From Congeria kusceri (taxonomy: Eukaryota > Mollusca > Bivalvia > Myida > Dreissenidae), in the NCBI GenBank assembly GCA_027627225.1, contig CM051024.1, positions 46,907,047 to 46,971,046 of the forward strand: a DNA stretch of 64,000 nt. The letters are read 5' to 3'. Positions 27,275 to 53,727 of this stretch are shown piece after piece; positions within the stretch are counted from its first letter, which is position 1, and the number at the start of each line of letters is the position of its first letter. The notes beneath the pieces were generated by a model. The model was not told the origin of the DNA. It saw nothing but the letters and a program-made list of their open reading frames with translations, and searched no databases. The position numbers and the translations under genes are program-made.

Positions 27275-27510
27275 TTATGGCAACAATTCAGCAACAACCT
27301 TTTCTTTCTTCTTCATTTCTGTTTGGGCAATTGCCCACACCTGGTGTTTTAATTTCAACCAAGGTAATGATTTCAAGTTTGTATCCCCATTTGTTAGCTG
27401 GAACCTGACAACCTCTGCCTTACAAGGAGGCTTTTTCTTTCGCACGGCTTCTTGCACTAGAGGCTGCATCTGCACCTTCTCCAGGCTGGACCAGATTCTC
27501 TTTTTTGACA
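27275..27510 (-). CDS. SET-YR gene exon 20 (C-terminal domain and stop)
   Basis: Acceptor aattttcag, phase 1 entry. Encodes KKRIWSSLEKVQMQPLVQEA, then PPCKAEVV and SLPWLKLKHQVWAIAQ, ending in TAA at 27275-27277. The KR-x-W-S...C...W-x-x-x-K-x-x-V pattern resembles the short SANT/Myb-like C-terminus of the same fish/mollusc family (recalled). No clear polyadenylation signal seen. Confidence 0.78.
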
Positions 27511-30500
27511 CTGAAAATTTTGCCAAAAAGTAAATGATTAACAATCTAGAGGTTACTCTTTTAAACTTAAGACAATCTCAAATCCAGATTACACATCTGA
27601 CATGCTATTGAATCATACTATTCCCACCAACATGCTAGGTTCATTAGCAGAGCCCAGAATTATAACAAGAGCCCCGGAAAACGGACGTCAAGCTCGACAA
27701 TCCTCTGTTTTTTACTGCAATAAAGGCAGTGTTTATTCAAATACGGCTCTGACAGTGCACAGAAGACGACACATAGAAGGTCATATTCAGGCAACCTTCC
27801 CGTCAGCTAATCGAATGCTAGCTTTCAAGTTTTTGAGTTTTAATATATCAAAAAAGAAATTCTATGTTTTAACTGACCTACAAGTATGTGCAATTACAAA
27901 GAATCCTGTATTTTTATAACTCACTGAAACTCCATAGCAATGACTTTGTGACTTATTAATATAAAACAAATAAAAATATCATATTTTTTTACATGAAGTC
28001 TCAGTCTTCCATAGGTTGCATGATGCAGTTTAAATTTAGTGTCTGACAAATTAAGCTAAAATTTAAATTTAGGTAATAATGGCGAGTTTAGAAATTCCCT
28101 TTATTGAAGAATAAAAAACTGAATGGGTTGTCCTCAGATCTTCCAGTTTAAGAAGATTGTGCACTTTAGTCAGAGCGGTGAACCCCTTTAAATGCAGAAA
28201 AAGCACAATGAATTCCTCAACAATACCTTGAACCATTCTTTTCTTTGATGGTGGAGCCTTGCAGGGTACATCGTCCTCGGCAGTGTCCGACTGAAGATCT
28301 GAAAAGGAGAGCAGAATAGAACATAACAGATTCAATTGATGTTTGAAACCATGGTTTCATAAAAGAAAATAGAAATACTGTAGCATTTGTGCCAGCAAGA
28401 GAAAATGCTTTTTTTTGTATTACAATTTTATCAAGAATTCTGAAGAAGGAAGACCATTTTCAAATGCCAACACATTTTTGTCTGCCGCACAATGTCCATG
28501 TCAAATGAAGGTCAAGGTCAAAGTACATGTCAGAGTGGAGAACCCTCTTAAATGCAGAAAAAGCACAATGAATTCTTTAACAATACCTTGAACCATTCTT
28601 TTCTTTGATGGTGGAGCCTTGCAGGGTACATTGTCGTCGTCAGTGTCCGACTGAAGATCTGAAAAGGAGACCAGAATATAACATAAATGATTCAAATGAA
28701 GTTTCAAACCGGTAAGTTTTTATAAAAGAAAATGGAAATACTGTAGCATTTGTGCCAGCAAGAGAAAATGTTCTTTTATTCGTAATACAATTTTATCAAG
28801 AATTCTGAAGAAGGAAGACCATTTTCAAATGCCAACGCATTTCTGTCTGCCGCACAATGTCTATGTCATGTGAAGGTCAAGGTCAAAGTACATGTCAGAG
28901 TGGAGAACCCCTTAAATGCAGAAAAAGCACAATGAATTCTTTCACAATACCTTGAACCATTGTTTTCTTTGATGGTGGAGCCTTGCTGGGTACATCGTCC
29001 TCGTCCGGCTGAAGATCTGAAAAGGAGACCAGATTATATATAATATAAAGGATTCAATTGAAGTTTCAAACCGTGTTTTTATAAAAGAAAATGGAAATAC
29101 TGTGGCATTTGTGCCAGCAAGGGAAAATGCTTTTTTTTCTAAATACAATGTTATAAAGAATTCTAAAGAAGGAAAAGAACATTTTCAGACGCCAACGCTT
29201 GTCTGTCTGCCGCACAATGTCTATGTCATGTGAAGGTCAAGGTCAAAGTACACATACCAACTGACAAGCTCTGTGGCAAGAAAGTTTTTGAATATGAATA
29301 GACTCCATCCAAGAATAAATAAGTTTCAAGAATTTGGATACCGGTATATCACTGTCAGAATTTCTACATATAGGATACATGTCTTAATTCCATGTAACAG
29401 AACTGACACCCTGTGCCTTTTCATAAAGTTTTCAAATTATCATTCCTGGTTTACAGAGTAGGTGTGACATCTGTGAATATACTGTAAATATATATGTTTT
29501 TTCAAAGCAATAACTTTTATCTAGAAGTACACAAGGTGAATGTTCAAAAAAATGTTGATACTGCACTCTGGTGATGTCAATAAAATTCTTTTAGAAGTAT
29601 CCAATGCCTTTTATTATACTACGATGTTAATAAGATTTAGTATAATAAGTAATTACCAAAGTCCTCTTCAGCACCATCCTCATCATTTTCTCCATCTTCC
29701 TCTTCACTTTCTTCGAAATCTGCAGAATGAACAATATATTGTTTTATTCAACCACACCATCTCCAACAAGCTGGTGGTTGGTATAAGGACCACAACTCCA
29801 GCATTCTTTATTCAAATCAATACAACAACTAGTTTGTTTCTGAAAAAAAAATGGCATGTCTCCCACCACTGCCCAACGATCCCACCCCTTTGTAATGGGA
29901 CTGGAAATATGAAAAAAAATTACCTGGTATAAGTCAACAAAGCAAACAAATATTGACAAAATTGCATACTAAGCTTAATTAATACTATTTTATGATAAAT
30001 TTACAAAACAGTTCGAATTTTATATGCCTCTCGTAGATTTCATAACAGCTTTTGATCAAGGTGGTTCTTTTAAGAAATATGAAACATGGAGATATTTATT
30101 TACTATTTATGCCCCATAACACAGTCCCAGTGTGTATATAGTAATAATTTTGTTTCCAAATCATTTTCTTCTGATTTCTGATGTCTCAGATTTTCTCTAT
30201 AGATTAAAAGAAATCAACAAAATCCTTTTTTTAGATGAGTGAGTTTCTGATTAGGTTTCTATACATATTTATAGCAAACATTGTCCATTAAAACCTGGAG
30301 TCCCACATTAATTCATCAATGTCATAAGAAACAAGGAGATAGACATTTCATTATTAAGTTTACGAGCAGTCAGTTTTTCAGCCAAATCATTTTAACAACT
30401 GTACCATATTTCTGTACTGAGCAATACATGAGAAATACATATTCACTTCTGACTCAGAATTTCTTTATGTTTTAAATTTGTTTTCATTACATTGCAAAAT

Positions 30501-33500
30501 AGGCAATTCACAACTAGACAAAAACACCTTAAACTAAACTAGCCCGTGAAAAGACCACTGATGCCAAAGACTAAATAATTAAGCACTGCTCTTAATGGAC
30601 CATGGTCGGCGATCTGATTGGCTGAAAATGTAGGTTATATTCTTAAGTATCAATTCTCAATTTAGTATCTTCAGCCGGTACTGAGAAAATGTGTGGACCC
30701 TGAGAATTTCTTCTTTTTTTTTTACGACATAACACACACATAATGGACAAGTAACACCTAATGCCTCACACCCACTATCCTTGTAGCTAGAAATCAGAAA
30801 TTACCTTCAAGATTGATGTCATCCAAGCTACGTCCTGCAAACTGAGCTGCCTTGCCTTCCTCTATGGACATGAGAAGTCGCGACACCTTTGCCAACTCTA
30901 TCACATCGTCCTGAAGACGGTAAAAGCGTCTGTGCACACTCAGTTCGTGGCCCATGTGACGCGCCAACTCCCCCAATTCTGACTCGGACAGATTGAAAAC
31001 CTGGAACAAATGCAGCATTTACCAATAATGATATTGATAACATAATTAAGCTACACTGCATGTATATAGGTAAGTTGCAGTCAATTTTATTCACATCATA
31101 ATTCCTGAAAAGAAATAACTGCACATAAATCTCAAGTGCCATGTGATTAGGAAGTGGGTTTGTTTGTATGGTTTTAATGTGCACTGACAGAATGTACCGA
31201 AACATCATCATCTGCAACATATCACTGATAATTGACACTCTGGCTCACCTGTGACACAGTGGCTAGGTATTTTCTTAGCTTTGTGCTGGTGATTCTTTCT
31301 GGGAATTGCAGCTCACAGGCCTGTACTGTCCTTCTGATGCAGTCACTTCCCCTCTTAAAGTTGCTGTCTCCCTGAAAGGAAACAAGTAGTGACATCAAAG
31401 CATAAGAGAAATCACTTGCTGCTGAACTGGTTTTGGAAAGTTTTCAAGAGCTACAGACAAGCTTTTGAGATCATTGGATTTATAACTAGTGTTGGTAATT
31501 GGACCCTAAATTACAGGACTGATTTAAGGATACTGAAATGATAGACCATCTATTATTCATGTTCTGGTGAGTATTTACTCCAATGTTATTCATGATGTGC
31601 TTTCACAATAAAATTAAATAATTTTACAGCATATATTACATCTAGTACATGTAAAAGTAATAATATTTAACTTTTGATTCTTTGAACAATAATCATATTT
31701 TTCGGCCCTAGGCTGACTGATTTCTATTTGACGTCCGTTCTACTTACAGTGCTATGTCAAGGTCGTTGACATTGTTACAGAGCATTCTAACTGATCAGCA
31801 AAATTGTGTACGGAGATATTTCCTGAGATTAGAACTTTTCCCTATTTATTGAGAATAATCAATTTCTATGCAGGTATATCCAAATGGCAAGCATGAAGTC
31901 ATTCAATGGATTTACTTTTAAACAATCATTTCCTTGCTAGCCTGGTTTCAAAGACTACAAATTTCGGAACCAAACAGCCATTTGATCTGTTTGTACATTG
32001 GTACTGGCTCCTTTGGCGGCCTGTATGACTAAATACCAAACATGAGTCATATTGGGAAAAATGAATGAAGATTTCAAATGTGAATATTTTTTAATGGAAC
32101 ACAAAATGAAATGAAAACACAGTTGACCGCAATTCTTCACATTCAATATGCTAATGTAGTAGCGACCAAAATGTTGCAGTTTTCCTTTACACATTATAAA
32201 AACAACATTTAAAGGATTGGTGTCATTTATGTAAACATTTCATGTTATATGGCCAAGAACCTTTTCTAAAAATACTTCTTGAAGTTTTCCTTTGCTGTTA
32301 TATAATTTTGTAAAGACAGAGAAAATTAGGACTGAATTACCTAATTCATTTTCCAGACTTTTCACAGACTGTGGGAACCAAGTAACAAAGTTGAGAACAA
32401 ACTCGAGTTTATCAAATTTATAGTGCAAAGACTGTAACTCTGACATACCTGTGCAAATACATGCGGATTGCAACTTTTCACCCCTCCTTCTGCCCTTTTG
32501 TCCACCAAAGCTTGTATGGCTGCCACCATTGTTTTGGTAAGAAGAACAGGCACGCGCTTGTACTGCTTTCCAACAACTTCTACCAAACTCATTCTAGAAA
32601 AGAAAACATTCAGTTAAATAATGTATCCTTTCGAAAAAAAAAACAGTAAGTGTATATTCTGTAGACACTATAATCCTCCAACAATAATTTGATGGTTATA
32701 ACCATTACCTAGAGGAATCCAAAACAAAAAATAGTTAAAACCAGAAACTATGGTCAATGGTCTACGACTCTGATATCACTGATAAATAGAAGAAAACAAA
32801 GAACAAACATCTCCCCCCCCCACACAAAAAAACATAGGTCACTTGAAAGCCAAGGTCAAATTTACACAACTGCTGGAAAGGTCTTGTGGCAAGGATATTC
32901 ATGTACATGTATAAAAAGAATCCACAAAGGGATAAGAAAGTTATAGCCAACATGCTGCTGCCACCGACACCCTAACTATGTTAATACCCGATTTTTTACA
33001 TGCAAGGACATGTCTCAAGAAAATCTTAACAATCAAGGTGCATACTAATGAAGTATATTGTTTCCTGCTTAGAAGTGATAGTCCGCTGTAGATTATCCAG
33101 GACTGCTCTACAGGTATCCGTCTGAACTACCAAAATGCATTTAAAACTAAATCAACTTACGTCTTCATCAAATGCTTTTCTATTGGTTGCAATGTTGAAA
33201 CAAGTTCTTGGTTTTCTCTTCCCCAAGCAGGTCGACCTACAAACTGTGAAGTTAGCATCTTTGACCCCTCACTCGCCCGTCTTTTGTTGAAAAGTATGAC
33301 TCTAGCGACTGTTACTTCTGCAAGCGCATTCCAGTGACTTGCGCATGGGCAGTCCAGCAACAAACTTGTCCTTTCAACGGTGGTAGTCTCTAAGTAGTTC
33401 TGAAGCAAACAAGAATAAACTGTAAAGGAGCCATACTTATGGAGTATATATTTTATGGCAACTTTAACCCAACACTGATCTGCAGAAAAAATACAGCATC

Positions 33501-36500
33501 ATTTGCGTACACAAGTTTTTTTTTGAAGATTTGACCTACTGACCTAGTTTTTTGAACCAACATGACCCACTTTTGAAGAATTTATAAAGACAAGCATCCT
33601 GACCAAATTTCATGAAGATCTGATAAAAAATGTAGACTCTATTGCGTACACAATCTATAACTGTTGCTGACGCACGATGCCAGACAAATGATGATCAGAA
33701 GAGCTCACATTGAGCACTTCATGCTCAGGTAAGCTAACAAATTGTTAGAGGAACACTTGATTATGCTACACACCAAATATCATAGCTCTATGCCTGGTTT
33801 TGGACAAGAATATTTTTAAAGTTTTTCAAGTTGCCAAGGCAACCAGAATTCTACATGGAATTCTTTGAATCACTTTGGTACAGCTTCGTGCAAGGAACAT
33901 CCCTGCCAAGTTTCACGAACATTTGCCAAGCGGTTTAGGACGATATGTTATTTGAAGTTAAGGTAAAATGTTGAGGTGAGCTAATAGACAGATTACAACT
34001 TAAGGTACAAAAATTGCATCTACTGGTTCACATAATAGGGATAATTTTACTCACCACATATTTCAAAAGATCCTCTGTCAATGGTAGAAGTACTTTCTTG
34101 TTATATTTCCTTTCTGATAGTGTGTGATGTGCAAGAGAGGAGACTGCTTCAGAGAATTCCTCAGTATACAGGCTGATAAACTGATCTGTTTCATCTTTTT
34201 TTGAAATTTCCAGTTTTCTGATGGCTTGGCCTCTTTTCAACACAGCAATTTTCTTCAAAAGCTGGCCTGCTTTCAAAGCTAAAGAAGGTTTTTTAAATGT
34301 TCTGGTTCCAGTTGATGATCCTTCTGTGGATTCTCCAGACATATTACCCACAGCTTTCAAACATATGTCAAATTTACTGGGTGTAATAAAATCATCAATA
34401 TCAGCCGACTCTAGACCAGTTAGAGATCTCAGTTCAATTTTGACTCGTCCAAGAATTCTTAATTTCTCTCTGACTTGACAAGCACGTTGGAGGCCAAGCT
34501 TTCGTAGTTGCACCTTTCCAAACAGTAGTAGCAGTTTGTCATTCTTCACAGCACGGCTGACATCGTCCATATGAAAGCGCTTCACAACATGATCAATGAA
34601 TTCTTCACTGTCTGATCCAAACACATCTGTTCCTAAAGCCCCTTGAAGTATGTATTCTGCTGAACGGACGCAATCATCTGCCGATTTTTTTACCTCTACT
34701 GCATTACTGACATTGATTTTCTCTTCTTTGAAAGAACAAGTTTTTACATGTCTCCAAAGTTCACCTTTCACAAAGAATGTCAAACAATATGGGCATGGAA
34801 GATAATTGCTGGCAGAACTTCCCTTCTCTTGTGCTGGGCGCCTTCCAACATAAAAAACACCGTTCTTTTTTATCAACACACTAATGTTATGGTTGAAGTT
34901 TCCCAGGTTCCGGTATTTTGCAAACACCCTCTTTCTCTTGGCTGAATCATCTGCGGAATTTTCCTTGGATGTGGATGGCAGCTGCCCAATCTCTGGGACA
35001 TCTTGATGAGCCTTTTCCAAATGTCTTGCCATTTTACTAACGGATTTTTCGCAGAAGAAACAGCAATGCTTTTTCGAGTAGTCTCGTTTTTCTGAATCTG
35101 TTACTGTCTGTATAACAATTTCTGGAGAAAAAATAAATAAAAAATTACTAAGGCATTTGGTATATCTGTATATGGTGGCAATCCTGTGCATAAATTCAAA
35201 ATGTGTATGGTTTACATTCTTGGCATCAGACGATGACAATGCAGACATGTATGAGTTTTTGAACTATTTACTCAGTTGGGTGGTACATGTACATCCTGTC
35301 GTTTGTAACTGTGTTTTCCCACAGAAGAGGACCCAACCTTAGAATAAAACATTTTCTTCATTGTTATTCCATCGTTGACAAAAAGGCTTTGTAATATATT
35401 TAACAATAGAAATGAAAGTCCATATAAGTTATGCAAATACACTCAACAATGAAGTTAACCAGTTTACATAATTTATGCAGATTAAAAATAAAAATAAAAC
35501 AAAACATGCTGCGTTCAGATTTACACCATGCAGGCTTGCAACACTAGCATTTAAGCCTACCATTAAAGACTGAAAGACTCTCTGACTTGCAGGTTGTTAT
35601 GGAAGTAATTGTTGAATCTAGAAATAATTTGGTCACATGAAATAATATCGGACAAAAGCTGTGAACAGTATTTTCCATGATGCCAGATTTACTGGAGTAT
35701 ATTCTCTAATCAAGAGACAGTTTTAGAACATCTGTTGAGTCTGTGGATAATTCTTATTGATAGAAGTTATTAAAACACAACTGCACTAAGCGGAGACAGA
35801 AAAAGACAAGTGCATATTTTGTTTGATTGTGTAAAGTGATGAGGATAGCTACACATACTTAACACCGCATTACTTAACCTGAAGACCTACTACAGGTAAT
35901 ATACATGATCTTTACAGGTCTTTGCGCGACCACATTGCCAAAACCATGCATTTGTTTCCTACAAGAAGACTCCATTTCCAAATGGACGGAATGTGCTGAG
36001 TAGTTACGAATGAGGAAAATGGAAATCACTAGTGGGCCATGCCGGAGATGGCAGTGTTTTTATGAGTAAAAATGATCGCTGTTTCCTGAAGATCTTTGGA
36101 GTAACTGGGAAGAGACTGGATGGAGCTTAAAACATGACGTAGAATTGCCTATTCTTGTAATTGAACATTTTACAGTCTGGATGGTACTTTGCTGATTTTG
36201 ATTTCCCATTTCAGGTCTGCTTTACTAAACTTGTTTATCTCCGCATGGAATTCACATATATTTATTTCTGCAAATTTCCTTGTTTTTTTTTCACACTTCT
36301 TCCCTGTTTTGTAATCAGTGCCATATACTAAATAGGTGTTTACGTAAAAGACAAAACTGCAGTGTAAGGAATACATTTACACAAGACTGGAGGAGAGCAT
36401 GGAAAAGCACAGATACAAGATTGGGTTTACAACTTGATAAGGGTAAACTGTCTGAAAACACACGTGCATGTCCACATTTTCGATGTCAGATGTGAAGAAT

Positions 36501-42500: not shown

Positions 42501-45500
42501 GCCTCCTGGAACTCATAACAAGTAATTTAGAACTTTTTTCAAAGTAACTGTGACAAATGATACCTTTAACTTCTGCCTGTAAAAAGGAAATTCAAACATT
42601 ACTGCATACAGAGCATTTGCACATGCAGAAACACACACACATAAGGATTTGTTATGATTCTACTTGTTAAGGCACTAGCATAACCACTTATTGATAGATA
42701 GCTATGTATCCTAGAGATATTTCTACCAGCACTTTTAATGCCAAGCAGGAAAAAATCCTCATATATACATGTAAGATTGGAACTAATTTATTAAATTGCT
42801 ACCATAACTTATTGAAACAGCAATACCTTTTCCCATGGAAGCTCAGCCAAACCATAATCATAGGTTATTTCCTCTCCAACTTCAATATTCCTGCATAAAG
42901 AAAATGATAAAACTTGTTTCATATTAGGGTTTGTTTTAACAAGAGCTGTCCACGGACGGCGCACTCGACTATTCAGTCACTCCACATATTCTATATCACC
43001 AATGGTTATTTAAGTATATGCATAAAAGCTACTTATACATGCAAAACTTTAATTCTTTCAGTCCAAAAAAGGGGCATTATTAGTAAATAAAATTTAACTC
43101 CACCAGTGGTAATTGAAGTATATGCATAAAAGTGGCTTGCACACAAAACTTTAACCAAATATTTTAAGTCCAAAAAGGGGCATAATCAGTAACAAATTTA
43201 GTCAAGAGTTATCTATCTTGACCGTATAATGCCCCTGAACATTGTGGTAAAGTTTTAACTCAATATCATCAGTGGTTATTGAAGTATATACATAAAAGTT
43301 GGCTTGACACAAAACTTTAACCAAATTTTCTGAGTCCAAAAAGGGGCATAATTTGCATAAAAATCCACCCAGAGTTAAGTAACTTAGTTATTCCAATAGT
43401 TTTAATGACTAGGAAGCCTCATGTAATGTTTCAATACAATATAAATGTAACGGTTTTTGAGAAATTCAGTACTTGCACGCAAAACTTTACCAAAAGTGTG
43501 GCGCCGACGCTTGGGTGAGTAGAATAGCTCTCCTTATTCTTCGAAAAGTCGAGCTAAAAACTGCAGACATGTCAATGCCTAAAACCTCATGATAAACGAC
43601 CATAACTCACTCATCCAAATGGAACAGAACTAGGTTAGGTGTCAAATGTTCCATGTTGGGGAGCGTTCTCTGGATCTGTCCAAAGACACCAAGTACTGGT
43701 TCTTCCCAGGAAACGGACTCGAGAACGTCTCTATAAGCCTAAGGCTTTCGATGCAATCGAGCTAAAATAAATAAGTTTAAACTAAATGTTCATGTTAGGC
43801 CTTTAGTATCAAAGAAATCCAAGCAAGGAATGAAGAGAAGTGGAGATGACAAGATTTACAAGACCATCAAGCTGTTGATAAATACATACCTTGTGGCAAA
43901 CAGTACAAGTTGTCCTTGAATCTCCTTCATCGATGCATTTCTTTCATTTTTGTTACCGTGGTTAACTAACCTTCCCAAGCGGCCTGATTCCCTGGAGGCA
44001 TCAGTGCTAAAATTAAGTTACAAAAACTGAATGAGAATCTAGTCACTGCAGATACACAAATAAAACTTACAAGACCTAATTGAGTAGTATATATACTACT
44101 CAAAGCTTGCTAAGCACCAGGATTTTGTATAGCGGTCATTTTTGCTGCTGGCTTTTCATGCTCCGGTTGTTGGCATTTTTTTAGAGCTTGCTGTATTGTC
44201 TTTATGGAGGTAGTTAATAATGCCCTTTGGTTACATCCACTCAACAATGACAACAGTTTGAAGTTGGTAAGGCGGGAAAAAGTCGAAACTTCAGTAGGAA
44301 TTGAAATTTCTCAAACTTTTATTGAAGGGTCAAGTTTGAGAAATTTCAACACCTACTGAATTTTCGACTTTTCCCACCCAACCAACTTTAAACTGCTGTC
44401 ATGGTTGATTGGACGAATCCAAATGGCATAATAACCTAATTCCAGAAAGGCAATATAGTATCCATCAAAAAAATGTGACAACCTGAATGACGAAAGGCCG
44501 ACAAGAAAAAAATACAGCTATACAAAAATCTGGTGCTTAGCAAACTTTGAGTATATATATATATGAAGTTTTGTTAAAAAGACCTGCATTTGGATTACTA
44601 GTCTCGAGGAATGGTTTGGATTGGATTTTGTATTTTACGCTGTTTTTTGACAACGAGGTCATATCACGACGTCCAGTTCACCTAACCAGCGCTCTTGGGT
44701 TCACCAGTACTAGCCGTCTATCTCCGCAAGCAACTGAGTGCTCCCTCACATGAGTCAGCTGTGAGGGACAACTAAACACTAGACTTTGACGCAATGCCTA
44801 GGTTCAATTATCAAGGAGAAAGTTTGCCGCTCCTGGTGGGGCTCGAACCCCTGATCCTTGCATTCGGAGTCCCACGCTCTAACTCGAAGAATGAATCCTG
44901 CAGTTTTAGACATGTAACAAATGCGTGAAAACATAGTCGGAGAACATTTACCACACTAGTTAATCAGCTTACCCACCTTTAAGAGTAACAGAGCTCGGTA
45001 AACATTTTTTTCACCGCTAACCACAAAGCAGTCAACCAACATCAATATAATTACTAGCCCAAGAGTACTCTAAACGTTTCCAGGGTGTAACCAGGGTATA
45101 ACTCTTCTGAATAAATAACTAGCGTTATTTTAAAGTATGCGTCTCATTACACATTAAATGCCTGTGTCAGTAATATTAGTAGTTATAAAAGTCATAAAAT
45201 TTAGCTCTCTGAAGCCACTTACCATAATTTCTTTCCTCCAGAGGTAAAGAAGAAACGAAACCCTGTTGGAATACATTCCCGCCTCTCCCCTTCGGCTGCA
45301 GAAATTGTTTCTCCTGCATAGTGCAGGAGAAATGCCCCAGCACTCCTCCACTGGGTTGTAACAATTCCCCTTCCTAAAGAGACAGATGTAAATTTCAAAG
45401 TACCTGTACTTCAAATCATGCAAAATATATGATTTAATTACACATTTCCAACATGCTCAAAAGGTGAAGTATCAGGGTGCCGTTTCACGGACACATTTAC

Positions 45501-48500
45501 GCTAGCGTAAGTAGAGACATGCAAGAACTGCCTGACTGGTCATCCACCATAATACAAAATAAAACCTTTGTTGAATTAGATGTAAATTGCTGTATATAAA
45601 AAATCAAACCTTAGAAACAAATCATTATTAACCCATACTGGTAAATGAAAGTCATTTTCTTGGTTTAGGCAATAGGTAACAGACCTGTCAAAGTGAGCAA
45701 AATGTAATGAGGACAGTAGTAATTCCAAGTGAGGTGCCCAAATAGTAAGAAAGTGATGACTAAGCTAGCAATTAACTTACCCATTAAACCATGTATCCAA
45801 ACTTTTGAAAAAAAATGTTTTTCTCTTCTAATAGAGATACACAGAGTTCCCAGACAGAAAAACTATGGAACACAAGGAGATATCCATTGCAGTACAGAAG
45901 CACATCACAGTTACACCTTTCAAATGATGTTAAAGATCCAAGTAAAGTGTTAACATCTTTTGTCAGTAAAAATATTGATGGCAGATTATCCATTTCTAAG
46001 CACATGTCTGACTACATCTAAATATAGGTACGGTGACATCACATCCTGTGCAAATGTCCTCATAACTTTTTACCAATCTGATTTTTGTTTACAAGTTCTA
46101 CTCAGGCTCTATTTGTTTAAATTATTTCTTTAGATAGATTTCAGATCTTTCAGGGATTTTTTTCAAGATTTTTGGACAATGACCCATACTCATGGATAAT
46201 CAGTTACACATGCTTATACAGCATCATAGCCACGCTGAGGCACACCGAGGCACCAGCTGCCTCAGTTAAAATTAGCAGACCAAAAACAGTTATAAAATAC
46301 TTGAAAGTTAGATATCATATAGTGTCAGAATAATGTCAGTTGTCCCATAGTCACAGAATTTAGGCAATTTGAGGCACTTATGACTATTTTCGCACCATAT
46401 AATTCCTGACATAATACCAAATTTATTACGGTTCCATAAATTGTTTATGTTTTTCGAGGTCACAATATTAAACAAAGCCGCTTTAAGCATAGTGTTTTAC
46501 ACTTCTTCTATGCATATGGTAAAATTATAACTTTATTGTTACTAAACTACTATGTATAACTTCAATACTTCGGGTTAATTTGTTTTAAAGCATGATTTAA
46601 GTGCCCTCCAAAACGCAACAGAGACGTACTAGGTAAAAAAAAATCCGAAAAAAATAATGATGTCTGTGGACAGCGCTAAACTATTCGGATCCTTGTCACA
46701 GACAAACTCTACATGTATGTATGACCAAGTTTCATTGAAAGTTAGAATCACAAAAATTAAAAGTAAGATATAAAGTAGCACACATATTTTTAAGTATATT
46801 TTAAACAAAATCTTCTTTTAAATTATAGCCAACTGCCAGAATTTGAACTAAAAATTTCCTAGTCATCCAGGACATAACTTGTATCTAGGCCATACAGAGT
46901 TTCCTAACCTCATAGTGCACTGGCCCTGAACACTAGTGTGAAACTTGTATAAAGTAAAAGGATTCAACAGCTTTCGAGATACTGCAACATGCATCAAAAT
47001 TTTAACTTAAAATTTGCTGAAGAACTTAAAACATCAAATTCTAACTCAGGGGACATTAATTTATGTCTAGGGCCATACAGAGTTAGGTAACCTAACTGTG
47101 ACAGTCACAACACTTGTGTGATGTGTCAAATCAATTGATTTATGTTTTTTTAGATACAGCAACTTGCCACAAAACTTTATCTTCCCATTTCTATGTCAGT
47201 CAGAGGACATACTAGTAACATATACCAAGGGCCATACAAAGTTACAGGACGTGTTACATCCATGTATTTGTTTATAAATTCTGGAAGTCTGTAACTTGAC
47301 CTTGAACAGTTTTAAAGTTATTTCCAATTTCCACAAACTTTTTTGTGTACGAAGGGCAATAATTCTGCAAGTATGTTTGCCAGTGTTGTAGGACATGTCA
47401 CAGGCAAGTATTTTTGAATCAGAAGCAGATTCTGAAAATTTGAGACTTGTATCTCAGAAAGTCTTTAAATTATATCCATTTTATGAAAACTTCATCCAAA
47501 CTTCTATGTTTAATAAAGAGCAACAATTCTGAAGTATGTTTACAAGAATTATGGGGACTTGTAACAGGCAACTATTTTGTAATCATAAGCAAGTCCTAAA
47601 AGTCAGAGGCAATTAAAGGGGCCATACCTTTTGTGCAACAGAAATATACATTAACAAGCATTATGGTAAAATTGTTATAAACTATTTGAAATGAGTACAC
47701 AAACATTCTTTTAAATTTTAAACTTGTTAAAATCCACATAATAGATGTAGAACGGCATGCCAAATTACTATACGTAAATTATAAAATCTTTTTTGACTGT
47801 CATCAGTCTGCGCGAAATGCTTTTGAAAGTACAGGCCATTCGGGCTTGTGGGTTAAGAAATTTCATAGGCCCGAATTAAAATCTACAGGCCCGAAGCAGT
47901 TTTGAAAAATTTATTCATAAAACAACGGATTAACATGTTTTATGTTCATTTAGACAACAATCATTTCAATTTGAATGTGTCCTGTATTTCAATAGACAGA
48001 ACACTTCGTCTTCAGTCATTTCCATATCTTCCGATTCATCCTCAGACTTTTAAGTAATAATTTCAAACAGTCTGCGGCCTTGCTCTGTGCCAATGGCTTG
48101 CTGCTCGCGGTAATATATTCTGTGGCCCGCTGGTGAATTTTACTGTTGTTGTGCTGGCTTAAAGCTTCATGTTTGAAATTATCGGTACCCTTTACAAATG
48201 AAATTTCTGAAATGGCGCCGGTCTGTTTTGTTTTGCTACAGAAACTTTGACAAGTGTCACAAGTCATTATTTTCTTGCTCACTGTACCTTAACCAAGCGA
48301 ATTCCGTTAACCATTTTGGCAGAAACTCTCTTTTACGTTTTTTTTCATAGTCAGCTGGTGTTTGCGTTTTACATTTATTTTTTACTCCAGGTTTGGCACC
48401 CGCAATGTACTTCAAGTTCAACATTTTGACATTGCTAATGTAAACAATGGACTGCTACTCCGTTTGTTTTTCCAAAAATACGATCGAAAAATGAAAACGG

Positions 48501-51500
48501 TAAACCAGTCAAATCATGAACTTGTAAGCGTAAAACCCGGTACACGGAGCATTTAACAGTTGAAGAAGATCCTAAATATTTACATGACATTTTTAATAGC
48601 TTTCAAACCGATATGACAAGTTCTTGTCGTTAATAAAACAATATATATATTATATTTTTATATACCTACTACAATTCTGTTTCAAATAAGGTGATGAATG
48701 CATACCGTTAGACAAGAGAACGCCGAAAAAAAACACCGGGAAATTGGCTCCGGACAATAGACGCATGGTTGATGTTAACATGTATATCGGTGAGGTAGAA
48801 AGGTCGCGCATGCGCTATATCGTAGTACACTTTTCTAAACAGAAACCAGAGTACTGTGAAGTGTTTACGTGAAGTGTTTACGTGAATTAAAACGTGTAAT
48901 TTTTGCAAACATACTTTTTTTTAAAATTACAAAACGTACACGCCCGTCGGGCGTTCAGCATCGAATATTTTACACGCCCGATACGATTTCTATACGCCAC
49001 GGGCATCGGGCGTGTGGCATTTCGCGCAGACTGTGTCATAGTCAAAAAAGATTTTATCAACTATTACATTTGGCAAACAAATGCCTCTGAACATAAATGC
49101 TATTTTGTTATTCTGCAATATTTTCTGAGTAGGTTGAATTGTGCTTTGTAATTAAAACGTTGAACAGTTTAAGTTATTTCTATTTTATAACAAGAGCTGT
49201 CGGAGAACAGCGTGCTTGACTTTTCTTGTGCTTGTCAGACTTGCTAGCTTTATTTCTAAACCAATCTGTCCCGATAATATTGTCGCCAATTAACCAGTAA
49301 AAAGTTAATTCAGTTCTCAAGTTACTAAATGGAAAGCATTTTTTTAAATTTTCAAAACAGTGACCTAGATCTTGACCCCACCAATCATATATGTAATGTA
49401 ATGAAATGTCTCACTATATCATATCAATTCACTGAGTTTCATTAAAATATTTCAATTTGTTCCAGAGTTATTAAGCAGAAACTGTTTTAGAACTAAACAG
49501 TGACCTTGACCCCACCCAACCCACTCCAAATGCAGTCCCAAGTAAAATATTGCTTTAGGGTATCTATATATGAAAAAATCATTCTTGAGTAAGAGAATGG
49601 AAATCTATTCTGTGGGAATGTAAAATGTCTAAGTGTAAAAAGGCCCCAAATTTTGACATATTTTAAACAAGAGTTATCAAAGTTGGCCTATGAATTAATT
49701 TTAATATCAGAAATAAGTGTTTAAGTTTGAATGAAAACTCTTTTGTCATTCCTGAGAAACAAGCAGACTGAAAAACTTCAACCTTCAAAAATAGCTGGCA
49801 TATAAAAGTCTAAGTAATAAAAAGGCCAATAACTTTACAAAATTAAAACACAAGTTACCTAACATGACAAATGAGTTTATTTTCATATGGGGGATAAATG
49901 TGTCAAGTTTAAATAAAATGCCTCAAGCCATTCCTGCCACACTAGCTTACGGAAATTTTAACCTAACCAAATAGCATTCAAGGTAATTTTCTAAGTGTAA
50001 ACTTTCCCTATGGGTTCATTTTAATTTAGGGAACTAATGTTTCATGTTTGAATAAAATCCCAAAAGCCATTCCTGAGATACTAGCTTACCAAAAAACTTT
50101 AACCTGCCAAAATAGCTTGCACTATTACTATTAGTTTCCAATTTAAAAAAGGCCCCTAATTTTGACAAATTTCAAATTAAAGTTACCAAACTTGGCCTAT
50201 GTGGTCATTTCAATATAAGCAACTAATGTTTCAAGTTTGAATAAAATCCCACAAGCCATTCCTGAGATACTAGCTTACTGAAAAACTTGAACCTGCCAAA
50301 ATAGCATGCAATGTAAATTTTATAAGTGTAAAAAGGCCTATAATTATGACAAATTTCAACCTAGAGTTACCAAATTTGGCCTATGGGTTCATTTTAATAT
50401 GGGAAACAAATGCTTGAAGTTTGAAAGGAATCCCTCAAGCCATTCCTGAGAAACGAGCTTACCGAAAAATTTAAACCAAGGCGGACACCGACGCGAGTAG
50501 AATAGCTTGCCTTTTCTTCGAAAAGTAGACCTAAAAACTATACCCAATGCAAATAGCGAAGTTAATTGTATGCTCCGATCATGGGTGTATTAAAATTTAC
50601 CTTTCCCTGGAAAACACTTGATTTCAAACCCTGGTGGGTCATCATCCTTATGCAGCCATTGTTCAGCTTCGCTTACTGGCTTTACTCTTTTAGCACGACC
50701 TGAAATGCAAATCTTGATCAAGCAGTCTGCTTAAACACACTTTGAAGCTTGCAGGCCTTTTTCTGAACATTTATAGGAGGGACCCTAGAAAAAGTTCAAA
50801 ATATGCATGCCATTATACAAAGTGGCAGGGATACTAACTGATAATTGTAGAAAAACGTATGAATCGCCAATGGACTCACGCGTTTTAAAACTATGCGTCC
50901 CAGAGAAAATTTGTATGAGTCCCGTGGAATAAAAAATGACTAGTTCTAGAACAATTTAATCAAGTAAAATGCCATAGAACCATACTTTATAGAAATAATA
51001 AGGGAATAAGGTACATAAATGACAAAACTATAAGCCTAAAATTAACACTATGGCATTAATTGTTCAGCATCTAGCACTTGTCATATTAAGAATTATAACA
51101 AACACTGTCGCTTTTGACATACATGTCGCTCACAAAAAACATGCAAATCTAGCACGTGCGCGTTTCCCATGGTAACGTTCCATGTCAATATATGGAACAT
51201 GTTAACTTTTATGTAGTCAGTCGAAATGTCAAAGATCTATATTTTCATCTTCTTTTGTCTGTACACTATTTAATTTATCTATTTCAACCTTCTATCTATA
51301 TAATTATCAAAGCAGACGTTAGGAACACCCTGTCAATAAGGGAATTTTCATTTAAATGTTGTCTTTTTCCTAAAGTAAAGCAGATCATATATGATTTTAA
51401 TCTAGTCTACAGTTTAAAACTATATAGTATAGCCAGCATATTTATTACCTTATATAGCAGTCGCCGCTTAATGTGTCTTCCCCTCCCATGGTTTTTTCTC

Positions 51501-53706
51501 GGGTTTAGGGGAAAAGGCCTGGCCTTTAATTTTGGGGAAAATTACACGATAAAAAGTCCAGAAAGGGAAAGAAATTGCAAGTGTAACTTTGAATTTCGGG
51601 GAAAGGTGCATTTCATAAGGCCCCTTTGATATAAGGAAAAAAATCCCTGCCTCAAGAATTTTTTCCCTTCCTTGAAAAAAATCCCCTCCTGTATTTACAA
51701 AATTTTTAACATTAGATCGGCTGTTTGTTTGATTTTTATAATTTTACGACATTAAACGTGTATAAACCCGGTTTATTATCCATACAAAAATGAAATCGGG
51801 CGTGCTGGGCAAAAGGAACGATTTACAGCATAACAAACAAATGTATCACAATTGGAAACACTACACCGGTAAAATTCAAAAACCTATATTGTACTATGGG
51901 TCTAAAATTTGAGATTTACATGATTCTTATGACTATTGAAAAAGCGGAAGTATAAGGTTTATAAGGTCTTAACAACTAATAGTAACTTTGTATATGGAGA
52001 AATTGGAAGAACAAATCTATGAACAGTAGAACTCTAAAATTTAGACTAAATGCAATCAGATACTGGTTCAAAGTGTATTCTTTCACATCATGTATTTTTG
52101 TACATTGTAAAAAAAATTCTCAATGTATGATTTAGGTATATATTCTGTATTTGAAATAGACCATACTTGTCCCACAGATGTCAAGGCAGAGGAAATTCGT
52201 GGAAGAATTTCATACATGGAGGGAGAGTATCTTCCACGAATTTCCTTCTGCCTTGACATCTGTGGGATGTCGTGCAGACCACAGTGGGTAATTTTACGTT
52301 GGGCGCCAATGTAACCCAGCTGAAAAAAACCCAAGCCACAATGGGAATTGAACCCGGGACCTCCCGGTTCATAGGCAAACGCTCTACCGCGTCGCTATAA
52401 AAGCTAGCTCTTATAGCAAGGCAGTATAAGTGTCCTTTATACATCACCCTACTACAAATGCTTTACATTTAATGTAAAGTTACAGTAATATTTGGCAAAA
52501 TACAATGTTTTTGATGACGTAAAACAAGTGTTTTATTATATTTTCCCCTAATAAGTGATTGTCGTGCGAAAATATCCCCTCCTCAAAGGCCCCAGGCCCC
52601 TTCCCCTAATGGTGAAAAAAAAACACTGATAGCTCCTAGTCACGTAATTGATGTGCAACTTGGTTTTTATTAGCATTCTTGGTCAAAATCGGGAGAGTCT
52701 GGCTGCTGCCTCAATCTGATTGGTTGAAGTGATAAACAAGTTGCCATAATTGTAAGAAATTTCTACATACATGAAGAAGATTAATACACAAGTTTAAATC
52801 GGAAATAAAAACTTATATTGGGTAATTTTCTGCACTTTTACAGCAGATTTAGTGTTGTTTATGTAAAGTATGTTGATTAATAACTCTATTCTAGCAAATT
52901 ATAAGAATTTATGAAATTTTTAATTTTCAAGTTTCCACCGCATAAATAGTCTTTCGCGGATTAGACGTTGCAGCGAATTTAGCCCCATATAAAAAGTAGC
53001 TCTAAATTCGTTGCACGTGTGATTTAGTAGACTAATAGTGTCTATAGACTTTTGTTTATTGTTTGTTTATTTGGGTTTAATGGCACTTAAACACAGGAAA
53101 GGTTATATCGTGTCGTATGCTAAATATGAAGTCTTAGATTTTAGAATACAAGTTAATCTCTTTTAAGAACCGGGTATTGAATTATGATGTTCAATGGAAC
53201 TGTTGTAAAGAGCTCTTTCAAGGTATTTAATGTATTTACTAGGAAACTATAGACTACTGACTCACCTAAAACTTTGACTTCTTTAACTTTTGGATTCTTT
53301 TTTGCAGTAATGTAAACTCTTTCCATCTTAATATTAGAGGATCTGTAGCTAATTTTTGCTCCCATGTTAAACTTAATGATTTGGCACTTCTATTGGCATT
53401 GCATGCCAATTTTTTTGAACTTTCAGTCGATGTCGTGCTAGATGCAAAAAATGGAGAACACTGGATGTCACTATTATGACACTTAGCACTGCAATTCGTG
53501 TCAGATCCTGTGTTATTTTCACTATATTGTGTAGCAGAATCAGACCTGGTACTACCACTACTAATACTAGATCTAGTGTTGGTAACTTGTATTTCGCCGT
53601 TATCAGTGACCTGGTTTGAATACAACGTATTTTTAGTTTTTAATTTCTGAATTCGTTTTCTTCTGATTTGATAATCTTTTCTGTTCGATTTGTTATGTTT
53701 TCCCAT
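27275..53706 (-). CDS. KMT5A-like SET domain / tyrosine-recombinase-like fusion protein (20 exons)
   Basis: Exons in transcript order: 53706-53266, 50699-50601, 45373-45223, 44006-43890, 42890-42827, 42576-42564, 41110-39178, 38850-38766, 37457-37321, 36984-36930, 35121-34055, 33399-33161, 32593-32449, 31371-31249, 31000-30805, 29719-29657, 29016-28951, 28658-28587, 28298-28227, 27510-27275. Every intron is GT-AG and phases match at all junctions. The sum is 5374 bases; restoring one base in each of two homopolymers gives 1792 codons (1791 aa). Domain order: basic Ser-rich N-terminus (1-147), PR-Set7/KMT5A-type SET (about 148-291), ~640 residues of 13-aa repeats, acidic linkers, C2H2-like and CCHC-like fingers, YR-like core (about 1380-1600), acidic stretch, triplicated Lys/Pro exon, C-terminal W-containing domain. 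I recall related SET proteins and YR-like C-termini in fishes and molluscs; whether this exact fusion has been named is unknown to me. Likely nuclear lysine methyltransferase; recombinase activity is unproven. Confidence 0.82.
28227..28298 (-). CDS. SET-YR gene exon 19 (third copy)
   Basis: 72 bases, phase 1-1. Encodes DLQSDTAEDDVPCKAPPSKK then RMVQ. Because all three copies are phase-symmetric, any number can be included without changing the frame. Confidence 0.75.
28587..28658 (-). CDS. SET-YR gene exon 18 (second copy)
   Basis: 72 bases, phase 1-1. Encodes DLQSDTDDDNVPCKAPPSKK then RMVQ. Same flanking splice signals as exon 17. Lies in the second ~360-base repeat unit. Confidence 0.75.
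28951..29016 (-). CDS. SET-YR gene exon 17 (first of triplicated exons)
   Basis: 66 bases, phase 1-1. Encodes DLQPDEDDVPSKAPPSKKTM then VQ. Basic, Pro/Lys-rich, NLS-like (inference). Acceptor ccttttcag, donor caag|gtattg, shared with the two other copies. Confidence 0.75.
29657..29719 (-). CDS. SET-YR gene exon 16 (acidic)
   Basis: 63 bases, phases 1 to 1, acceptor ttctgcag, donor tttg|gtaatt. Encodes DFEESEEEDGENDEDGAEED, an acidic tract after the YR core. Confidence 0.75.
30805..31000 (-). CDS. SET-YR gene exon 15 (YR LGH-His and Tyr)
   Basis: Phases 0 to 1. SESELGELARHMGHELSVHR then RFYRLQDDVIELAKVSRLLM. This matches L-x-x-x-L-G-H...Y of tyrosine recombinases: MGH and FYR retain the His and the nucleophile Tyr. 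IEEGKAAQFAGRSLDDINLE follows. Confidence 0.87.
31249..31371 (-). CDS. SET-YR gene exon 14 (YR box II arginine)
   Basis: 41 codons, phases 0 to 0. GDSNFKRGSDCIRRTVQACE, then ITSTKLRKYLATVSQ. STKLRKYLAT corresponds to box II (H-x-L-R-H-x-x-A-T) with Thr in place of the first His and Arg retained. Confidence 0.83.
32449..32593 (-). CDS. SET-YR gene exon 13 (YR beta-hairpin region)
   Basis: Phases 2 to 0. MSLVEVVGKQYKRVPVLLTK, then TMVAAIQALVDKR and NPHVFAQ. GKQYKRVPVLLT resembles the G-K-x-x-K-x-R-x-V-P-L hairpin carrying the catalytic lysine in tyrosine recombinases. Strong splice sites. Confidence 0.8.
33161..33399 (-). CDS. SET-YR gene exon 12 (YR box I)
   Basis: Phases 0 to 2. Contains NALAEVTVARVILFNKRRAS, then EGSKMLTSQF. 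FNKRRASE fits the R-x-x-E pattern of tyrosine recombinase box I (inference). Acceptor gcttcag, donor agac|gtaagt. Confidence 0.8.
33500..33735. repeat. Bivalve-type hairpin-ended repeat in intron
   Basis: Includes 'gaccaaatttcatgaagatc' and ends with 'agctcacattgagcac' ... 'atgctcaggtaagct' (33700-33735), the same terminal hairpin as at 27140, 57700 and 62638. A related fragment ends near 33983. Confidence 0.6.
34055..35121 (-). CDS. SET-YR gene exon 11 (zinc fingers + YR N-terminal region)
   Basis: Phases 1 to 0, 355 codons. Begins EIVIQTVTDSEKRDY, then CCFFCEKSVSKMARHLEKAH (C-x2-C...H-x4-H finger). A second metal-binding-like motif follows: LPCPYCLTFFVKGELWRHVK, then TC. The remainder (LIKKNGVF, RLKILGRVKIEL-like, FKKPSLALKAGQLLKKIAVL, LPLTEDLLKYV) matches the N-terminal core of a long protein family I recall from fishes and molluscs, immediately preceding the YR-like domain. 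Confidence 0.85.
36930..36984 (-). CDS. SET-YR gene exon 10 (linker)
   Basis: Acceptor tctcaaag, donor gaag|gtaaat, phases 0 to 1. Encodes GPIKVSADSTTGSIPEKE. Supported by splice sites and phase only. Confidence 0.6.
37321..37457 (-). CDS. SET-YR gene exon 9 (acidic linker)
   Basis: Acceptor cccaacag, donor acag|gtgagc, phases 1 to 0. Encodes VVTVFIDHDDHTDPHDLLLN, then DSEASEIIEVQ. No known domain. Strong consensus splice sites and fitting phase. Confidence 0.7.
37801..38430. repeat. 100-bp tandem array, ~6.3 units, intronic
   Basis: Units start 'ttcagagtcaccaagatttg' at 37801, 37901, 38001, 38101, 38202, 38302 and 38402; the period is 100 with one of 101. Copies differ by only a few bases. 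Located in the intron between exons 8 and 9 of the SET-YR gene. Confidence 0.95.
38766..38850 (-). CDS. SET-YR gene exon 8 (linker)
   Basis: Acceptor gttttag, donor gcag|gtaccc, phases 0 to 1. Encodes DVEQKQTRGKQEYCHQSSSE, then IDREPEPA. No domain; placed by phase and splice sites. Confidence 0.65.
39178..41110 (-). CDS. SET-YR gene exon 7: ~49 tandem 13-residue repeats
   Basis: A 1.93-kb exon (acceptor atttttcag, donor caag|gtaggg) made almost entirely of a 39-base unit encoding variants of EMEAQKGGQDPAE. Charged, Gln/Glu-rich and probably helical or disordered; no enzymatic domain. Units near the 5' and 3' ends are most diverged and the middle (about 39880-40500) most homogeneous, as in a growing minisatellite. 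One frame change at the C-run 39500-39503 (one base short) splits the exon into frames of 508 and 117 codons; restoring it makes the length fit phases 1 to 0. Plus-strand frames over this region are antisense artefacts. Confidence 0.8.
41880..42430. repeat. Degenerate ~165-bp tandem repeat in intron
   Basis: Three to four units recognisable by 'tcaaaatcaataagggtcat', 'aacctaggcccttttgt' and 'actgtgaccttgaaagttga' variants. This type is dispersed through mollusc introns (recalled). Non-coding. Confidence 0.65.
42564..42576 (-). CDS. SET-YR gene exon 6, 13-base microexon
   Basis: The sequence gcagaagttaaag is bounded by cctttttacag and gtatca. It encodes AEVK plus the first base of Ala, converting phase 0 to phase 1 exactly as needed between the SET exon and the repeat exon. 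AEVKA also resembles the repeat unit that follows (EIKAQK). Supported by frame logic only. Confidence 0.65.
42827..42890 (-). CDS. SET-YR gene exon 5 (SET C-terminus)
   Basis: Phases 2 to 0. NIEVGEEITYDYGLAELPWE plus K. GEE-x-T-YDYG carries the catalytic tyrosine motif of SET domains and is intact. The ELPWEK tail replaces KMT5A's DRSKASIEAHPWLKH-type end, as I recall for the KMT5A-like paralogues. Confidence 0.9.
42941..43562 (+). repeat. Bivalve 'aacaagagctgtc' dispersed element
   Basis: Begins 'aacaagagctgtccacggac' and ends 'cttcgaaaagtcgagctaaa'. The inside has repeats of 'tccaaaaaggggcataat' and 'ttgaagtatatgcataaaag'. A longer relative with the same ends is at 49189-50537. No coding capacity. 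Confidence 0.75.
43890..44006 (-). CDS. SET-YR gene exon 4 (SET catalytic core)
   Basis: Phases 2 to 2. TDASRESGRLGRLVNHGNKN is the counterpart of KMT5A's VDATRETNRLGRLINHS; the NH pair belongs to the AdoMet-binding NHxC region, here NHGN. Then MKEIQGQLVLFATR precedes the last SET strand. Confidence 0.9.
44095..44565. mobile_element. Foldback MITE-like palindromic element (~470 bp)
   Basis: Almost the whole element is one imperfect palindrome centred near 44330. The outer arms 'actcaaagcttgctaagcac' and (reverse) 'gtgcttagcaaactttgagt' match. So do 'tttttgctgctggcttttca' with 'gacgaaaggccgacaagaaa', and the inner arms 'gaaatttctcaaactt' with 'aagtttgagaaatttc'. Ends abut TATATA runs, compatible with insertion into TA-rich sites. 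It is non-coding and lies in the intron between exons 3 and 4 of the SET-YR gene. Confidence 0.85.
44819..44892 (-). repeat. tRNA-like SINE head
   Basis: On the minus strand, 'agttagagcgtgggactccg' (A-box-like) is followed by 'ggggttcgagcccc' (perfect B-box stem-loop) with normal tRNA spacing. The acceptor stem does not pair convincingly, so a tRNA-derived SINE or tRNA pseudogene is preferred. It continues leftward toward the foldback element. Confidence 0.6.
45223..45373 (-). CDS. SET-YR gene exon 3 (SET N-terminal part)
   Basis: Phases 1 to 2. Reads RGIVTTQWRSAGAFLLHYAG, then ETISAAEGERRE, then GFRFFFTSGGKKL(C). It corresponds to the KMT5A region GRGVFAT..GDFVVEYHGDL...KREALY. The GRG turn that contacts AdoMet is present across the exon 2/3 junction. 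Longer-looking open frames in the other two phases here are shadows. Confidence 0.87.
45815..46021 (+). other. Possible antisense exon, unidentified
   Basis: After a good acceptor (tttctcttctaatag, 45832) the frame reads RDTQSSQTEKLWNTRRYPLQ, then SKNIDGRLSISKHMSDYI, stop at 46021. Composition looks protein-like, but I recognise no family and no upstream exon. It could be a retro-fragment within the intron between exons 2 and 3 of the SET-YR gene. Confidence 0.25.
46022..47783. other. Intron; degenerate repeats, no gene
   Basis: Contains degenerate 'ggccatacagagtt' and 'acttgtgtgat' tandem phrases (46870-47400) of the bivalve repeat type. No exon seen. Confidence 0.4.
47784..49056. mobile_element. 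TIR element (DNA transposon remnant) with zinc-finger ORF
   Basis: Terminal inverted repeats of about 39 bases: left 'aaaatcttttttgactgtca' plus 'cagtctgcgcgaaatgc' (47784-47822), right the reverse complement at 49017-49056. Inside is a minus-strand frame with a Cys/His N-terminus. The interior has short GC-rich direct and inverted 'cacgcccg/cgggcgtg' words. No full transposase, so this is a non-autonomous or internally deleted copy. Confidence 0.75.
48016..48282 (-). pseudogene. BED/TTF-type zinc-finger fragment of a transposase
   Basis: 89 codons: MSKKIMTCDTCQSFCSKTKQ, then FVKGTDNFKHEALSQHNNSK, IHQRATEY. The C-x2-C...G-x-x-N-F-K-x-x-x-L-x-x-H-x-x-S-x-x-H pattern is the TTF/BED-like finger found at the start of hAT-type transposases and ZNF862/C17orf113-like proteins. 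The catalytic domain is absent. Located within the TIR pair at 47784-49056. Confidence 0.6.
49189..50537 (+). repeat. Bivalve 'aacaagagctgtc' element, long copy with internal tandem units
   Basis: Begins 'aacaagagctgtcggagaac' and ends 'cttcgaaaagtagacctaaa', matching the ends of 42941-43562. The interior holds about five ~170-base units with 'aagccattcctgagatacta', 'gcttaccgaaaaactttaac' and 'ttggcctatgggttcatttt'. Non-coding. Confidence 0.75.
50601..50699 (-). CDS. SET-YR gene exon 2 (pre-SET/SET start)
   Basis: Acceptor atttcag, donor aaag|gtaaat, phases 1 to 1. Encodes GRAKRVKPVSEAEQWLHKDD, then DPPGFEIKCFPGK, joining to GRGIV in exon 3. This matches the start of the KMT5A SET domain (..GKGRGVFAT). 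Confidence 0.85.
52171..52266. repeat. Near-perfect hairpin, 36-bp arms, 23-bp loop
   Basis: The left arm 'cccacagatgtcaaggcaga' plus 'ggaaattcgtggaaga' (52171-52206) pairs with 52230-52266; the only difference is one extra base. Such high arm identity implies recent origin or functional pairing. Confidence 0.9.
52333..52405 (-). repeat. tRNA-like segment (SINE head or tRNA pseudogene)
   Basis: On the minus strand 'gcgacgcggtagagcgtttg' is followed by 'cctatgaaccgggag' and 'cccgggttcaattcccat' (B box). Spacing is tRNA-like. Acceptor-stem pairing is poor, so not called a functional tRNA. Confidence 0.55.
53266..53706 (-). CDS. SET-YR gene exon 1 (start codon, one frameshift)
   Basis: Starts MGKHNKSNRKDYQIRRKRIQ and is rich in Ser, Thr and Asn. 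It ends ...SLTWEQKLATDPLILRWKEF, then TLLQK. Read literally the frame stops at a TAG that coincides with the splice donor (ttttag|gtgagt). The exit phase required by exon 2 is supplied by the frame KNPKVKEVKVL, reached if the six-A run (T run on the plus strand, 53298-53303) had one more base. An acceptor-like tttctttaacag lies 21 bases upstream of the ATG, suggesting an additional 5' UTR exon. Confidence 0.65.
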   Translation of the reverse strand: MGKHNKSNRKDYQIRRKRIQKLKTKNTLYSNQVTDNGEIQVTNTRSSISSGSTRSDSATQYSENNTGSDTNCSAKCHNSDIQCSPFFASSTTSTESSKKLACNANRSAKSLSLTWEQKLATDPLILRWKEFTLLQKRIQKLKKSKF

Positions 53707-53727
53707 AATCAGAATATCAGACTGTTA

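Follow-up and report, generated by a model that had tools for sequence, protein, structure and literature searches.

We describe a giant mobile element in the genome (1.55 Gb) of the bivalve Congeria kusceri, found within a 64,000-bp stretch of DNA, hereafter the window (C1:46907047-46971046). The locus is a recently mobile, intron-containing DNA transposon of the tyrosine-recombinase (YR) class, whose recombinase is accompanied by a SET domain of KMT5A type. We hold the element and its domain order, as read here, with high confidence, and consider the explanation as a whole, a giant YR transposon with a KMT5A-like SET domain and a chromatin mechanism in cis, likely. A first-pass annotation of this DNA had confined the feature to 27275..53706; the mobile unit is larger and spans 23568-54075 (Table 1).

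Extent, copies, and mobility

The unit in the window is 30,508 bp long, with CGGTTTTATGGCCCAGAAC as its first bases and TATTACCAGTAC as its last, and five copies (that of the window and four fetched ones, 29,375-30,845 bp) can be aligned over their whole length. Long blocks among the five are mostly 98.5-99.98% identical; identity falls to 93.7-97.8% where blocks span the repeat exon or the intronic repeats near 50000, and at the CT ends. Outside the exons, the window copy and that on C14 differ at only 9 of 23,423 sites, and movement must therefore have been recent; the introns are retained in all five fully read copies, and the mobile form is therefore DNA. Kept introns, common ends and differing flanks together show mobility as DNA.

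E7, the first of the recombinase exons, has 118 matches in the genome (561 candidates, 115 scored); 30 of them, window copy included, are full-length at 97-100% identity, and 29 of these 30 are free of stops. For the SET part, 648 candidates (150 scored) led to 150 matches. Of 38 E7 matches (from the 118) set against 42 SET matches (from the 150, the stronger ones to exon 3), 36 have SET exon 3 10.3-17.0 kb upstream on the same strand, including all 30 near-identical copies; 6 of the 42 SET matches lacked an E7 partner among the 38. Further SET-YR pairs seemingly exist on C482 (45 kb apart) and at C6:11.4M (31.5 kb apart). Four SET-like exons of 58% identity stand at a spacing of ~29.9 kb on C6 (14736245, 14766146, 14796051 and 14825962), where a related family probably forms a tandem array, and C97:674500-675400 holds a KMT5A-like SET open frame of 207 residues, which belongs either to a host paralogue or to a further element.

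Target sites

The element is found in (CT)n tracts. Its low end was examined at 25 loci and its high end at 22, the window included in both. The low end is present at 23 of the 25, and a CT-type 30-mer (at least 90% pyrimidine and at least 65% CT/TC steps) adjoins it at 22 of these 23, as against 20 of 223,776 30-mers in flanking DNA; the exception, C1:89.7M, is also missing its high end where this was sought. High ends are present at 21 of 22 loci, 20 of them running directly into a CT tract. By blastn, the low-end flanks at the 23 loci are unrelated to one another, two tandem junctions excepted. C10 and C17 each have a head-to-tail copy pair, whose members lie 29,981 and 29,868 bp apart, respectively, with a CT tract as the joint. 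Both ends being within CT tracts, a short CT direct repeat of the Crypton type (4-6 bp) is indistinguishable from the target itself. At C3:52.2M, the 21 nt preceding the CT tract on the left recur directly after the right end, followed again by CT; this recurrence may stem from an unequal exchange or from an extended duplication of the target.

The first-pass annotation had proposed instead a domesticated fusion, that is, a host gene whose recombinase serves only as a DNA-binding guide for H4K20 methylation. The constraint on the SET and YR exons described below would suit such a gene, yet at least 30 near-identical copies share identical ends at different loci with CT-microsatellite targets, individual copies bear their own nested insertion and frame breaks, and the catalytic residues are kept in nearly all of 57 relatives. 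Conservation of the catalytic set in an element that moves likewise speaks against a mere guide, and we regard this reading as extremely improbable. Its strict form, an immobile gene at a single orthologous locus, was rejected in view of the 30 copies, their termini and their unrelated flanks.

The recombinase

The YR part of the transposon comprises ten phase-matched exons (E7, 35121-34055, to E16, 27510-27275) that form a single open frame of 758 codons plus stop. The first-pass annotation had noticed YR-like motifs in four exons; the class assignment holds, with a chain of ten exons and 81% identity to a Ruditapes philippinarum protein in place of the four. Structure comparison, which the annotation had suggested for this C-terminal core, matches the recombinase model to the folds of XerH, Cre and lambda Int, and the model has both the core-binding and the catalytic parts of an Xer/Cre-type fold. 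Catalytic places were set by spacing to Cre and lambda Int, with the residue numbering that we take to hold for these two enzymes. Arg I, Lys, Arg II, His/Trp III and Tyr are kept in 55, 56, 56, 57 and 56 of 57 rows, and the full set (Arg I, Lys, Arg II, His III, Tyr) is present in the window copy; the His II place of the H-x-x-R motif is occupied by Thr in 53 of the 57 rows and in the window. E16 seemingly corresponds, in diverged form, to the helical domain at the C terminus of the relatives, given a likeness by eye and the helices in the model of sea-urchin protein P0064. The three short exons of E12-E15 and their introns (28227-29016) form ~366-bp units that are 86-91% alike and look like internal duplications in the gene.

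Sequence profiles do not recognize this recombinase. No Pfam integrase match was found in the exon pieces or in 11 family members; the same 11 gave no match to DUF3504, with the limit that HMMER filters drop weak matches, and none to the Pfam family DUF3435, which we take to be the name of the Starship captain domain. A YR profile search of PDB sequences returned 8 matches up to E 1, the best at 0.0078, which were mostly zinc-finger proteins and included no recombinase. The YR assignment therefore rests on fold and residues.

Could the recombinase belong to a DIRS-like retroelement or an endogenous virus? Tyrosine recombinases do occur in DIRS elements and, according to PMC10871703, in crustacean viruses with large DNA genomes whose insertion sites are simple repeats, and there is a weak resemblance, at zinc-finger level and below cut-off, to the finger of a viral glycoprotein. 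Such an origin is nonetheless very hard to credit: all five fully read copies still have their introns, and Pfam-type scans of all 16 of 16 stop-to-stop stretches of at least 110 residues in the element found no reverse transcriptase/RNase H, polymerase or capsid family. When viral contigs were scanned with two patterns, none of the 22 pattern matches was confirmed as a relative, and viral origin was set aside as a candidate.

The SET domain

Upstream of the recombinase, SET motifs occupy four minus-strand GT-AG exons with matched phases, E2-E5, as the first-pass annotation had said, and read GRAKRVKPVSEAEQWL...PGKGRGIV...GRLGRLVNHG...GEEITYDYGLAELPWEK. KMT5A is closer to this SET domain than any other SET family: among solved structures it is the best relative (4.5e-21, against 2.2e-7 for KMT2A), and the SET domain of an Acropora fusion protein likewise matches KMT5A best (7e-22), with the same order of families. 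For the sea-urchin fusion P0064, Foldseek ranks 1-25 are SET8 and all 50 rows shown are SET proteins, so that this listing is silent on the recombinase. Taken alone, E5 matches PF00856 at 7.6e-4, just under the cut-off for that piece. The Tyr of E3, which we take to be the active-site Tyr, the Asn-His pair of E4, whose role is presumably that in KMT5A, and the YDY residues are all intact in the window, and judged by these residues the SET domain is probably an active methyltransferase.

The SET exons of the window were compared with diverged copies in the same genome by the ratio of nonsynonymous to synonymous divergence (dN/dS). The ratio is 0.34 and 0.31 against C7 copies (three exons, 10 E3 codons gapped), 0.30, 0.41 and 0.11 against two C6 copies and one on C13 (two exons), and 0.14 against C9:27.5M (E3 only, with near-saturated dS), with one-sided p values, in this order, of 0.012, 0.0022, 0.15, 0.22, 0.00062 and 1.8e-5; in a seventh comparison, C6:14.7M, dS is saturated. 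C9:27.5M and C6:14.7M both have a stop in exon 3 and may be dead copies. Between the window and C8 copies, 3 of 2,715 sites are changed in the SET and YR exons, as against 118 of 23,267 in other element DNA; the same three exon differences are common to C8, C9 and C12, and this therefore counts as one comparison. The repeat linker changes at an intron-like rate (12 of 1,934 sites). SET and YR are thus kept together and constrained.

One gene or two

We infer that SET and YR are encoded on one messenger RNA in this species. The first-pass annotation had described an unbroken phase-matched chain with two single-base corrections. The chain is sound within E2-E5 and within E7-E16 and is not confirmed across E5-E6-E7: the strongest acceptors of E6 and E7 each call for one base carried over from the preceding exon, and neither E5 nor E6 ends with such a base to spare. 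Both exons also have weaker acceptors in phase 0. The correction in exon 1 is unneeded, an in-frame ATG at 53326 reading into E2. A longer upstream open reading frame (53706-53269) is in a different frame with TAG at the splice donor, and as a part of the protein it was dismissed as unsupported (2 of 441 sites changed, like introns). The second correction answers to a real frame change near 39500, in E6 of the window copy; E6 is one open stretch in C8, C9 and C14 (655-668 codons, stop to stop), and in C12 it is broken elsewhere. Small candidate exons at 37457-37321 and near 37000 scored, singly, no better than shuffles.

Alternatively, the transposon may hold two neighbouring genes, with SET expressed separately as an accessory protein and YR as the transposase. 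The out-of-phase acceptors between E5, E6 and E7 would fit this arrangement, as would an AATAAA shortly 3′ of E5 and the annotation of most relatives as YR without SET, with Mya P0067 having SET and repeats without YR. Single SET-repeat-YR models nevertheless exist in Acropora, Solemya, Hydractinia, Corythoichthys (partial SET), Mya, Strongylocentrotus (two) and Tegillarca, in which the linker repeats come after SET as they do in the window, and we consider two genes improbable.

Relatives and distribution

The nearest protein relative of the recombinase is R. philippinarum P0001, at 81% over the whole region searched. Gene models from four phyla place SET and YR in one polypeptide in the order of the window, which bears out the annotation's joining of a KMT5A-like SET with a recombinase fold in one unit. 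The survey of orthologues that it advised across Bivalvia yields fused SET-repeat-zinc finger-YR proteins in Solemya (P0019), Mya (P0057) and Tegillarca (P0059), along with a Ruditapes SET fusion model that ends in zinc fingers (P0056), and, beyond bivalves, in Acropora (P0006, P0061), Hydractinia (P0022), the sea urchin Strongylocentrotus (P0058, P0064) and the pipefish Corythoichthys (P0031, partial SET). In the P0064 model, SET is followed by a long helix and a linker that is disordered (220-409); the recombinase helices come next, and then a small C-terminal domain, also helical. By eye, the linker repeats differ between families. Most of the 55 YR relatives are models without SET, many of them from contigs of a few kilobases, so that the lack may be one of the models only. 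SET and YR identities show no correlation across eight families, and we therefore make no claim of a single fusion event. The family may swap its N-terminal partners: Acanthaster P0066 has SET, protein-kinase and BRCT Pfam domains, and in Melanotaenia P0028 a kinase is joined to YR.

Other features of the window

The nested insertion, which is no part of the element proper, is present in the window and C14 copies (two of five) and absent from C8, C9 and C12; its ends resemble inverted repeats (cgcgcagactg), and it marks a subfamily. Pieces of a non-long-terminal-repeat retrotransposon lie at 6468-9987 (plus strand), in consecutive open stretches that match endonuclease (PF14529, 5.4e-7) and reverse transcriptase (PF00078, 3.1e-24). 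An open stretch at 57278-57649 (plus strand) matches UPF0240 (PF06784, 1.3e-14) and is likely a host gene 3 kb outside the element.

Table 1. Coordinates of the element and its parts within the window
Feature	Positions	Strand	Remarks
Mobile element	23568..54075	minus (coding)	Two ends identical in all five fully read copies
CT-rich tract, low end, part of target microsatellite	23519..23567		
CT-rich tract, high end	54076..54178		
Likely first coding piece (MERVYITAKKNPKVKEVKVL)	53266..53326	minus	In-frame ATG at 53326, putative start codon
E2, SET N-flank (GRAKRVKPVSEAEQWLHKDDDPPGFEIKCFPGK)	50601..50699	minus	Phase-matched GT-AG exon
Nested 1.2-kb insertion, zf-C17orf113 open reading frame (48288-48019, minus)	47808..49034	not assigned	Profile match, copy alignment
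E3, SET (GRGIV...FFFTSGGKKL)	45223..45373	minus	Tyr codon 45320-45318
E4, SET (GRLGRLVNHG)	43890..44006	minus	Asn 43963-43961, His 43960-43958
E5, SET end (GEEITYDYGLAELPWEK)	42827..42890	minus	Tyr 42862-42860, 42856-42854
E6, linker exon, 13-residue (39-bp) tandem repeats	~39177..41110	minus	Exact splice ends uncertain
100-bp minisatellite between E6 and E7, inside element	37797..38435		
Candidate small linker exon (VVTVFIDHDDHTDPHDLLLN...SEIIEVQ)	37321..37457	minus	Position fits Ruditapes P0001
E7, two zinc fingers (C2H2, C2HC) and recombinase core-binding helices	34055..35121	minus	
E8, catalytic domain start (FNKRRASE)	33161..33399	minus	Arg I codon 33279-33277; start at 33399 given by Ruditapes relative
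E9, beta-hairpin Lys (GKQYKRVPVLL)	32449..32593	minus	Lys codon 32568-32566
E10 (TSTKLRK)	31249..31371	minus	Thr at His II place 31284-31282; Arg II 31275-31273
E11 (GHELSVHRRFYR)	30805..31000	minus	His III 30949-30947; nucleophile Tyr 30922-30920
E12-E15	28227..29719	minus	Acidic exon 29719-29657; related short exons 29016-28951, 28658-28587, 28298-28227
E16, C-terminal exon	27275..27510	minus	Stop codon ends at 27275

Proposed mechanism

We propose a single gene whose product starts with a KMT5A/SET8-like SET domain, continues through a fast-evolving linker of tandem repeats and two zinc fingers to an Xer/Cre-type recombinase, and ends in a small C-terminal domain. The recombinase would excise the unit as a circle, at whose junction the last bases TATTACCAGTAC would be joined via CT to CGGTTTTATGG, and integration would follow by strand exchange within CT repeats; tandem growth could then arise by integration next to a resident copy. 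The linker may allow the SET domain to reach nucleosomes beside the bound DNA, where it would monomethylate a histone lysine at the donor or the target, with H4K20 as the substrate inferred by analogy. Methylation may give the recombinase access, or may let the new copy escape silencing. That the SET domain acts on chromatin in cis is a tentative proposal. More tentative still is its extension to an animal-wide class of transposons, in which the recombinase would dock on CT-repeat DNA and a tethered SET would methylate nearby nucleosomes (H4K20me1 or similar) and thereby open, time or shelter both integration and the new copy.

Instead of writing on histones at the target, the SET domain might be a nucleosome-docking or non-histone module, which tethers the recombinase or modifies silencing factors. 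SET8 structures do include nucleosome complexes (titles of 5hq2 and 7d1z), and the substrate of the element's SET domain is only predicted by analogy; the intact active-site Tyr, Asn-His and YDY residues and the constraint on the exons, which docking alone does not obviously demand, make this possibility unlikely in our judgment, if less so than the two-gene arrangement.

Comparison with known systems

KMT5A/SET8/PR-Set7 is the closest SET family by sequence and fold, with the active-site residues kept; the SET domain of the element differs in being only ~40% identical to human KMT5A and in being joined to a mobile recombinase. In SETMAR, too, SET is joined to a transposase, there a DDE mariner enzyme, in one domesticated gene of primates; the pairing described here belongs to a mobile element, with a YR as its enzyme. 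The Starship/Enterprise elements of fungi are likewise giant with one YR; the present host is an animal, and in the relatives SET is within the recombinase polypeptide rather than cargo. Cryptons differ in size and gene structure from this element of ~30 kb with many introns, a SET domain, CT-microsatellite targets and no Pfam integrase match in 11 family members. The likeness lies in what Kojima and Jurka (2011; PMC3212892) report of Cryptons: DNA transposons moved by a eukaryotic YR, without terminal inverted repeats and with a proposed circular intermediate. The endogenous nimaviruses of crustaceans (PMC10871703) share zinc finger plus YR (C2H2/SAM tyrosine recombinases) and simple-repeat insertion, and their integrase is possibly related; they differ as large viral genomes targeting (TAACC)n or 28S ribosomal DNA, while the element targets (CT)n and no viral genes were seen in it.

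Our literature search found no paper on a SET-plus-YR element by title or abstract start, with Repbase, bioRxiv and most subscription papers outside its scope; a term search of the main text of a 2023 bivalve transposon survey (PMC10294476) gave neither "crypton" nor "tyrosine". YR transposons and giant YR elements were already known, and what is new here is the form, that of a giant animal YR transposon that is specific for microsatellites and has a methyltransferase domain built in.

Implications

A giant, intron-bearing, CT-microsatellite-specific YR element is hereby added to animal genomes, and catalogues in which proteins of this kind are entered as host genes may have to be corrected. 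In the usual view, it is the host that places chromatin marks on transposons. In the present case, the gene for a mobile recombinase comes with a histone-methyltransferase-type domain, which is under selection; each of the 30 near-identical copies has the two side by side, and fused relatives range from corals to fish. The question whether mobile elements write chromatin, and by this means control the place, time or manner of their insertion, thereby becomes open to direct test. If inherited vertically, such a chromatin-writing integrase would be older than the cnidarian-bilaterian split.
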